Assembly: GCA_944390315.1 (NCBI GenBank)
Contig: CALXPO010000012.1
Coordinates: forward strand, 1 to 64,000
DNA length: 64,000 nucleotides
From: an uncultured Alphaproteobacteria bacterium
GTDB taxonomy: Bacteria; Pseudomonadota; Alphaproteobacteria; RF32; CAG-239
Direction of reading: 5' to 3'
Within the stretch, counting starts at the first letter, position 1. Every line of letters starts with the position of its first letter. Positions 168-50,060 of the stretch are shown piece by piece. The notes below the pieces were generated by a model. That model worked only from the letters and a program-made list of their open reading frames with translations, was not told where the DNA came from and did not search any database. The position numbers and the translations under genes are program-made.

Positions 168-197
168 TCTAAAACAATACGGATAGTTTTTCAGAAA

Positions 198-229
198 TGA
201 GCTCTTAAGAAAACTTAAGAGCTCATTTT
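198..229 (+). terminator. Rho-independent terminator after tuf
   Basis: A perfect 12-bp inverted repeat (TGAGCTCTTAAG / CTTAAGAGCTCA) with an AAAA loop is followed by TTTT. It lies 30 bp after the tuf stop codon. Confidence 0.85.
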
Positions 230-236
230 GTATAAG

Positions 237-366
237 TTACTTTACAGAAAACCCGAATTTAACTCTGGATAGAAACGCTAAGGTGTTGGAAACAAAACCG
301 TTCTACGCCAACGTGCGTGGTCAAACTATTAAGGTTTAGACCAATTTAGAATTCTTAGTTTAGTGA
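237..366 (-). repeat. Five-hairpin intergenic repeat, copy D (decayed, inverted)
   Basis: Read on the minus strand, this stretch aligns along its whole length with the repeat at 41030-41165. Shared blocks include TTTGACCACGC, GTTGGCGT, CCAACACCTT and GGGTTTTCTGTAA. Many substitutions have weakened the hairpins: the CCACGC/GCGTAG stem keeps 5 of 6 pairs, and the terminal CCCCGAGT/ACTCGGGG stem is largely lost. It fills the gap between the tuf terminator and the rpmH promoter and contains no gene. This is the oldest-looking of the four copies. Confidence 0.8.
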
Positions 367-25286: not shown

Positions 25287-25419
25287 TAGATATCCCCCAC
25301 TGGGGGTTCTATAACAGCTAAAAACCTTACGGTTTGACCACACTCATTGGCGTGGAGCGACATTGTTCCAACACCTTGGCATTCAACCACGAGTAAACTC
25401 GGGGTTTTCTGTAAGGCAA
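25287..25419 (+). repeat. Five-hairpin intergenic repeat, copy A
   Basis: Matches copy B at 41028 along about 135 bp. Hairpin 1 is CCCCC-ACT-GGGGG (25294-25306), differing in loop from copy B but perfectly paired. Hairpin 2 is AAACC-TTAC-GGTTT, hairpin 3 CCACAC/GCGTGG with one mismatch, hairpin 4 is partly decayed, and hairpin 5 is CCACGAGT/ACTCGGGG. It ends TTTTCTGTAAGGCAAC. It lies in the same orientation as the flanking genes, after the membrane protein pair and before the transporter gene at 25490. Confidence 0.88.
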
Positions 25420-25421
25420 CC

Positions 25422-25449
25422 AATAAAAGAGGCAATTGCCTCTTTTATT
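25422..25449 (+). terminator. Palindrome/terminator after repeat copy A
   Basis: A perfect 28-bp palindrome (AATAAAAGAGGCAA / TTGCCTCTTTTATT) followed by TTTTATT. It directly follows the TAATAAAA-like end of the repeat. Confidence 0.7.
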
Positions 25450-39772: not shown

Positions 39773-41026
39773 ATGCATTTAAATGATTTAAAACAAAAAT
39801 CCCCTAAGGATTTATTGACCGAAGCGGAGGAGCTCGGTATTGAAGACGCTTCTTCGATGCGCAAACAAGATTTAATGTTTGCTATTCTAAAAAAAGTAGC
39901 CTCAGATGACAATGTTATCTACGGCGAGGGTACCATAGAAGTTTTGCAAGACGGTTTTGGATTTTTACGTTCGGCACAATCAAACTATTTGGCAGGTCCC
40001 GATGATATTTATGTTTCGCCGGCGCAAGTTAAGAAATTTGGATTAAGAACGGGTGATACGATAGAAGGCGAAATCAGAGCTCCAAAAGATAATGAACGTT
40101 ATTTTGCCTTAACCAAAATTAACAGAATCAACTTTGATGATCCTGAAAAATCCAAGTTAAGAATTAACTTTGACAATTTAACTCCATTATATCCGACAGA
40201 AAAACTCGATTTTGACATTATCTGCGGTGACAAAGATTATACAACGCGTATTATTGATTTAATAGCTCCACAGGGTAAAGGACAACGCGGTTTGATTGTA
40301 GCTCCGCCCAGAACAGGTAAAACCGTTATGTTGCAAAATATAGCTCATGCTATTTCTACCAATCATCCGGAAATATATTTAATGGTACTTTTGATTGACG
40401 AGCGTCCGGAAGAAGTAACAGATATGACGCGTTCGGTTAAAGGCGAAGTGATATCTTCAACTTTTGATGAGCCGGCAACACGTCATGTTCAGGTTGCGGA
40501 AATGGTAATTGAAAAGGCTAAGCGTTTGGTAGAAAACAAAAAAGACGTAGTTATTTTGCTCGATTCCATTACGCGTTTGGGACGTGCTTATAATACGGTT
40601 GTTCCTTCTTCGGGTAAAGTTTTGACGGGCGGTGTTGATGCCAATGCTTTGCAAAGACCAAAGCGCTTGCTCGGTGCAGCTCGTAATGTTGAAGAAGGCG
40701 GTTCTTTAACCATTATTGCAACAGCTTTGATTGATACGGGCTCGCGAATGGATGAGGTTATTTTTGAAGAATTCAAGGGAACGGGTAACTCCGAAATTAT
40801 TCTTGACCGCAAGTTGACCGATAAACGTTTATTCCCGACCATTGACATTACTCGTTCGGGCACACGTAAGGAAGAATTGTTGGTTGACAAAGCAACTTTG
40901 ACTAAGATGTGGGTATTGCGCCGTGTTTTGATGCAGATGGGTATGACCGACGGTATGGAATTTTTGCTTGATAAGCTCAAACAAAGCAAAGACAACCAAG
41001 ATTTCTTTAATAATATGAATTCTTAA
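39773..41026 (+). CDS. rho: Transcription termination factor Rho
   Basis: 417 residues. The N-terminal Rho domain has [15 protein letters not shown] and the cold-shock-like RNA-binding [19 protein letters not shown]. The ATPase part has Walker [13 protein letters not shown] (near 177-185), Walker [15 protein letters not shown], a Q-loop ([18 protein letters not shown]) and an R-loop. Rho is the RNA-dependent helicase that ends transcription. It is the first gene right of the putative origin. Repeat copy B begins within 2 bp of its stop codon. Confidence 0.97.
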
Positions 41027-41027
41027 A

Positions 41028-41170
41028 TAGATATCCCCCAGTAAACTGGAGGTTCTATAACAGCTACAAACCTTACGGTTTGACCACGCTCGTTGGCGTG
41101 GAGCGGTGTTGTTCCAACACCTTGGCATTTAGCCCCGAGTAAACTCGGGGTTTTCTGTAAGGCACTAATA
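41028..41170 (+). repeat. Five-hairpin intergenic repeat, copy B (best preserved)
   Basis: Five stems follow each other in about 120 nt. They are 41035-41052 (CCCCCAGT/ACTGGAGG, one mismatch), 41067-41082 (CAAACC/GGTTTG), 41084-41101 (CCACGC/GCGTGG), 41105-41121 (GGTGTTG/CAACACC) and 41133-41150 (CCCCGAGT/ACTCGGGG, perfect). TTTTCTGTAAGGCA and CTAATAAAA follow. The last stem plus TTTT would also terminate transcription. The repeat starts directly after the rho stop; copies A, C and D share it at 25287, 49922 and 237. There is no open reading frame. Confidence 0.92.
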
Positions 41171-41223
41171 AAAAAAACTCTCTAAAAAGGGAGGTTTTTT
41201 CATTTTAGTAAAAAAGATGAAAA

Positions 41224-49921: not shown

Positions 49922-50060
49922 ATATATTCCAGTAAACTGTGAATTATAAATCAGCTACAAACCTTGCGGTTTGCCACGCTTGTTTGAGTGGAGCTGTGTT
50001 GTTCCAACAGCTTGGCATTCAGCCCAGAGTAACTCGGGATCGAATGCTTAGGCAACTAAT
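49922..50060 (+). repeat. Five-hairpin intergenic repeat, copy C (partly decayed)
   Basis: Aligns with copy B throughout: CCAGTAAACTG, CAGCTACAAACC-TTGC-GGTTTG, CCACGC, GTTGTTCCAACA, CTTGGCATT, AGAGT..ACTCGGG and GGCAACTAATAAAA. Hairpin 4 has changed on both arms and re-pairs as AGCTGT/ACAGCT (49992-49997 with 50007-50012). Hairpins 1 and 5 are shortened. It lies upstream of rsmG on the same strand as its neighbours. Confidence 0.85.

Follow-up and report, generated by a model that had tools for sequence, protein, structure and literature searches.

A new IS200-type PATE lying beside intrinsic terminator hairpins in uncultured Alphaproteobacteria

Introduction

PATEs were defined in Haloquadratum walsbyi as elements with palindromes near their ends, no terminal inverted repeats and ends related to those of IS605-type elements (PMC3119063), and are also known from Halanaerobium (PMC7290912). 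The established model for IS608 has TnpA bound to hairpins near the ends of the element, with a guide at the base of the hairpin that pairs to the site of cleavage; insertion takes place as single-stranded DNA, on the 3' side of a short motif (PMC5934647). Here, we analyse a repeat from the genome of an uncultured alphaproteobacterium. Four of its copies lie in the window, that is, the 64,000 nucleotides of contig CALXPO010000012.1 (assembly GCA_944390315.1, positions 1 to 64,000) in which it was noticed.

The repeat is a new PATE. It resembles those of Haloquadratum and Halanaerobium in having subterminal palindromes without terminal inverted repeats or a transposase gene, in sharing its ends with IS200/IS605-type transposons and in giving rise to core-deletion forms (here L082 and L083); the lack of target duplication in those PATEs may also hold for the repeat, as it apparently does at related IS200C sites. 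It differs from them in being alphaproteobacterial, in its tnpA-only IS200-type parent, in three extra conserved core hairpins (a 75-bp core) and in its insertion at terminator hairpins. A Y1 transposase and subterminal hairpins are also features of IS608 and ISDra2, and for IS608 a further hairpin has been described on the 3' side of the left-end palindrome (PMC5934647). However, the IS608 target is a tetranucleotide base-paired by the guide, the word terminator is absent from that paper, and no need for a hairpin in the target was seen (PMC5934647). We regard it as very probable that the repeat is a non-autonomous IS200/IS605 PATE, moved in trans by a Y1 TnpA and aimed at the A-tract at the foot of terminators.

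A repeat of five conserved hairpins, shared within one bacterial family

The copy beside rho (copy B, Table 1) folds into five adjacent hairpins, as a sequence-only reading of the window had proposed, with z-scores of -5.3 under RNA parameters and -5.2 under DNA parameters; none of 200 shuffled sequences equalled it. Its forward reading frames are interrupted by stops, in agreement with the earlier statement that it has no open frame, and at ~140 bp it is too short for a transposase gene. The end of the repeat, previously placed at TTTTCTGTAAGGCA, lies near that point, but the true terminus, GGCAACTAATA (GGCACTAATA in copy B), is a few bases further.

Table 1. Coordinates of the repeat copies and neighbouring features in the window
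Feature	Position	Strand	Basis or remark
Copy B of the PATE	41028..41170	+	(TA)GATATCCCCC...GGCACTAATA; end positions +/- 2-4 nt
Hairpin 1, left-end subterminal, loop TAAA	41035..41052	+	Sequence family is that of the parent IS200-type left end
Hairpin 2, core	41067..41082	+	Fold and alignment
Hairpin 3, core	41084..41101	+	Fold and alignment
Hairpin 4, core	41105..41121	+	Fold and alignment
Hairpin 5, right-end subterminal	41133..41150	+	CATTYA before, TTTTCTGTAAGGCA after
Target, intrinsic terminator 3' of rho (A-tract, GC stem, T-tract)	41171..41200	+	z = -4.3; copy B at its 5' foot
rho (transcription termination factor)	39773..41026	+	TIGR00767, E = 1e-206; stop codon adjoins copy B
Copy A	25287..25419	+	BLAST (25287-25418); loop of hairpin 1 deleted
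Terminator hairpin AAAAGAGGCAATTGCCTCTTTT directly adjoining copy A	25425..25446	+	Sequence
Copy C, decayed	49922..50060	+	BLAST (49929-50038); right side without clear terminator
Copy D, decayed, inverted	237..366	-	Alignment; right end faces the terminator hairpin at 196-228
Terminator hairpin AAATGAGCTCTTAAG-AAAA-CTTAAGAGCTCATTT beside copy D	196..228	.	Sequence

A BLAST search of the ~1.56-Mb genome (1,556,089 bases in 27 contigs) retrieved 48 matches at E<=0.01, most of them with 75-99% identity and several arranged as head-to-tail pairs. The four copies listed earlier for the window were all recovered, A and C by BLAST and the inverted, decayed D by alignment, and are a small sample of these matches. 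Matches were present in 13 of the 57 genomes searched, including sister genera, and every one fell within the same bacterial family. Those carriers of the left end that bear names are uncultured Alphaproteobacteria, several of them from the gut or rumen of deer or reindeer. One sequence, identical over 144/144 bases, occupies 15 distinct sites across several genera, indicating that the repeat has moved recently and between genera. Such identical copies lie in G017, G018, G019 and G020 (L049, L059, L066, L073, L089 and L090), assemblies in which many contigs terminate within a copy. Left-end-only matches in G018, considered as a candidate autonomous copy, proved to be contig ends.

The sequence-only reading had suggested that the genome and its relatives be searched for pairing support, which was found. 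In an alignment of 28 distinct copies, 93% of the helix cells are paired, falling to 45-47% when the partner is shifted by one column, and changes on both sides were seen in 14 of the 33 pairs, compared with 6.1 in shuffles (0/500). Hairpin 2 is conserved without compensatory change, while all other helices have compensatory support, including changes of this kind in four of the seven pairs of hairpin 4.

Compensatory changes and a very stable fold, in copies that often lie downstream of genes, where transcription would include them in the UTR, are what a functional structured RNA multiplied by copying would display, whether a 3'-UTR element, an sRNA or an omega-RNA relic. Nevertheless, we consider this highly improbable. 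G-T and A-C mismatches are about equally frequent over the five helices (62 vs 85 cells), G-T not being in excess, which is the pattern expected of a decaying DNA hairpin and carries no RNA wobble signature. Constraint, thus, acts on the structure of the repeat, but there is no visible sign that it acts on an RNA. An Rfam search, at gathering and permissive thresholds, gave no family at cut-off and weak sub-threshold matches, so that no known RNA family could be named now either. Furthermore, the ends of the repeat are also borne by a transposase element, and copies occur in both orientations with respect to the gene that is terminated. The omega-RNA relic proposed earlier finds no support in the decay of pairing, in parents that carry tnpA only or in a PF07282 search of the window's own genome, which found no TnpB gene. 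As for the proposed 3'-UTR RNA, the position of copies 3' of genes is explained by insertion beside terminators, including ones that serve an opposite-strand gene.

Terminal-only forms, which lack the core and have the left and right hairpins fused to each other, occur at L082:1135-1180 and L083:3965-4009, one of them directly 5' of a terminator. The perfect palindrome AATAGATATCCCCCAGTAAACTGGGGGATATCTATT (L080:2697-2732 and L081:3338-3373) is also coreless and consists of the left end followed by its inverted copy.

Parent elements of the IS200 type carry the same ends

Parents were traced by a Y1 transposase search of relatives, the host genomes being metagenome assemblies. The first complete element, in G015, starts with AATAGATATCCCCCAGTAAACTGGGGGTTCTAT, carries an antisense tnpA and ends with CATTCA, a hairpin and TAGTCTGAATAGCCCTAATA. 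A family-wide search yielded TnpA matches in 48 of 152 genomes, including two clades (87-100% and about 70% identity) that span several genera and have the anatomy of the G015 element in common. Each parent has a single, intact Y1 tnpA gene encoding 142 aa. The protein sequence shows HVH and YxxxQ motifs, matches Y1_Tnp (PF01797, 2.4e-31) and transpos_IS200 (NF033573, 4.6e-34) and is related to structurally solved TnpA proteins, including that of IS608. A REP/RAYT element was considered and rejected, given that this TnpA scores 30.5 against the RAYT model NF047646 (cut-off 80) and 117 against the IS200 model (cut-off 55).

The left end AATAGATATCCCCCAGTAAACTGGGGGTTCTAT is common to the parents and the repeat consensus. 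At the right end, the parents have GCATTCA, a hairpin and ..TCTGTAAGGCATTAATA (typically GCATTCAACCCCCATTAAAATGGGGGTAGTCTGTAAGGCATTAATA), and the repeat has GCATTCA, a hairpin and ..TCTGTAAGGCAACTAATA, the shared parts being GCATTCA 5' of the hairpin and TCTGTAAGGCA..TAATA 3' of it. Since its ends match those of intact tnpA elements, the repeat is a transposase-less IS200 derivative, that is, a PATE. This bears out the suggestion that it was IS200/IS605-related and PATE-like, and, of the tnpA/tnpB-flanked relatives that it proposed to look for, intact elements carrying tnpA alone were found in sister genomes. No source was found for the core (hairpins 2-4).

The matching ends suggest that the parent TnpA moved the repeat copies in trans. 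The window's own genome contains no close relative of this protein, only a type with 31% identity and fragments. These own-genome tnpA genes were rejected as the mobiliser because the ends of their elements differ (AAACCACGCG.../...CCCCGCGTTTTACGCGGGG). G017 and G018 contain repeat copies, yet no Y1 gene was found there, although the movement between genera is recent. The mobilising enzyme may, therefore, have been lost, transient or unassembled.

TA is present at both junctions of the repeat, and tandem junctions suggest one shared TA. A classical DDE-transposase MITE with TA target duplication (IS630/Tc1-like) would leave such junctions, but we give this origin almost no credence: the two ends do not form an inverted repeat, hairpins 1 and 5 being in direct orientation at unequal distances; the tnpA parents with the same ends are of the Y1 type; and the empty sites of IS200C in Escherichia coli show no duplication beyond a one-base ambiguity in tract length. 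The left-flank logo reads AA-TA (84%, 98%), and AATA is possibly part of the element, the E. coli empty sites being A-runs without AATA.

Most copies lie at the 5' foot of strong hairpins, usually terminators

The right flanks of the copies begin with a run of A (97, 90, 79, 81, 76 and 63% at successive positions), followed by a GC-rich stem. A strong hairpin was located within 12 nt to the right of the element in 74% of 87 distinct copies, against 3% for left flanks, 2% for random sites and 14% for element-free A-run sites. It is always the same (right) end of the element that faces the hairpin, which is usually an intrinsic terminator, and many target hairpins carry both an A-tract and a T-tract. 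About a quarter of the copies are without a strong hairpin, some through decay. The parents behave alike: by inspection of both clades, a hairpin adjoins 12 of the 16 with a readable right flank. A set mixing parent and PATE right ends ('REA') was left out of these results. The sequence-only reading had overlooked the terminator to the right of the copies.

Empty sites in sister genomes, a comparison proposed along with the original description, were available at the rho locus. In eight sister species without the element, the stop codon is followed by a short A-rich spacer and then directly by the terminator hairpin; in the window genome, copy B sits between the rho stop codon and that hairpin. 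Where repeat copies are in tandem, the new element adjoins the left-end hairpin of the resident copy. Group IIC introns likewise insert beside intrinsic terminators; however, they are ribozyme/reverse-transcriptase elements, and the Rfam search of the repeat gave no group II intron match. In the segment from 100 to 366 of the window, the gene before copy D ends like elongation factor Tu (last codons), and a terminator lies between this gene and the copy.

An association of this kind could also arise if the PATE inserted almost at random into A-rich single strands and the harmless copies between stop codon and terminator were those that remained. The genomes are compact, and divergent regions, which make up 25% of intergenic DNA, contain just 1 of 69 insertions, as such survivorship would predict; convergent regions, with 13% of intergenic DNA, hold 37 of the 69. 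As a control for targeting versus survival, the comparison was limited to convergent intergenic DNA, where the weakest selection is expected. Even there, a hairpin adjoins 31 of 37 insertions (84%), against a share of 32% among the 126 A-run sites (p = 3e-8). The orientation toward the hairpin is one-sided whichever gene the hairpin serves, and very recent copies, identical in sequence at many sites, show the same pattern. We, thus, consider survivorship an unlikely account of the association. Selective loss elsewhere could be responsible for part of the terminator preference, but the convergent-gene control argues against its being all.

Some insertions are found at terminators that serve only an opposite-strand gene, which argues for the DNA hairpin, and not the transcript, being read. 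In our literature search, terminators were nowhere described as targets of IS200; most subscription journals were outside its coverage, and priority is accordingly uncertain.

IS200C of Escherichia coli occupies the same kind of site

A search of E. coli DNA with the parent tnpA gave no match, and the IS200C copies of this species were reached by protein similarity via plasmids. They occupy 16 distinct sites, including those after pheP, typA, guaA, clpA, yfeX, wzzB, emrB, carB and plaP. A strong hairpin follows in 14 of the 15 readable right flanks, the fifteenth being weaker, compared with 2 of 16 on the left side. In one of the 14 cases, the hairpin belongs to the left end of another IS200C copy, an arrangement also seen in the PATE tandems. 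Searching E. coli with the joined flanks retrieved the empty allele from thousands of genomes, and the four alleles examined in detail consist of a plain A-run and a terminator (e.g. GTAATTAAAAAAAACCGCTCTC). IS200C, thus, lies within the A-tract that borders the base of the terminator stem, apparently without duplication, with a variation in tract length of +/- one A.

Besides this target, IS200C shares with the repeat and its parents a left end of the form AATAAATAT-hairpin (here AATAGATAT-hairpin), a right-end hairpin followed by TTTTCTGT and the antisense layout of tnpA. It differs in being autonomous, with a length of about 707 bp, in its right terminus, GTGCACA, and in its TnpA, whose identity to the parent protein is only about 31%.

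A proposed targeting rule and its implications

In the mechanism that we propose, a Y1 (HUH) TnpA would recognise the subterminal hairpins of the repeat as single-stranded DNA, excise the repeat strand and insert it without target duplication, a single-strand chemistry presumed by analogy with IS608. The repeat would go into the A-tract found 5' at the foot of an intrinsic-terminator hairpin, its right end toward that hairpin, which TnpA would accept as a substitute for the hairpin of its own left end. Indeed, the left end (AATA-RATAT-hairpin) and the favoured target (A-tract-hairpin) resemble each other, and TnpA may read the A-tract and hairpin as if they were its left end. We lean slightly towards a general form of this proposal, in which IS200-group Y1 transposases of Alpha- and Gammaproteobacteria choose their targets by DNA structure, namely the 5' foot of a hairpin after an A-tract (in practice an intrinsic transcription terminator), as a mimic of their own left end.

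A structured repeat that had been unexplained thus turns out to be a mobile element whose parent is known, and its insertion at terminator hairpins suggests that IS200, an insertion sequence widespread among bacteria, may follow a targeting rule so far undescribed. If true, the rule would help to explain why IS200 is rarely mutagenic and has a low mutational cost, and how transposase-free derivatives can accumulate in 3' intergenic DNA, the terminator foot being a natural low-damage insertion site. It also calls for caution: transposon ends should be excluded before repeated hairpins beside terminators are named new RNA families.

Related Y1 elements

An IS200/IS605 element of a Vibrio plasmid (NZ_CP133896; L247) has a TnpA with 62% identity and a right end, CATTCATCCACGGGTAAACCCGTGGTTTTCTGT, close to the alphaproteobacterial one, a similarity that hints at transfer between classes. 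However, it shows no clear terminator at the one site seen.

A second Y1 family, whose TnpA is 35-39% identical to that of the parents, and its short derivatives (ATGAAACTCCACCGGC...CTACCTGC..GCAGGTAG-TGTTACGTTCGAATCAT) were found at terminator A-tracts and beside PATE copies (flanks of L008, L017, L027, L033 and L083; L117-L123). A third family, with about 31% identity to the parent TnpA and ends GTAACCCACCGG... and ...TTCTTGTTAC, is represented by L074 (C27:209704-210006 in the window's own genome) and L127-L131. Under the strict hairpin rule, the right end adjoins a hairpin in 3 of 6 cases for the second family and, at terminators, in 4 of 5 for the third, both being small numbers.
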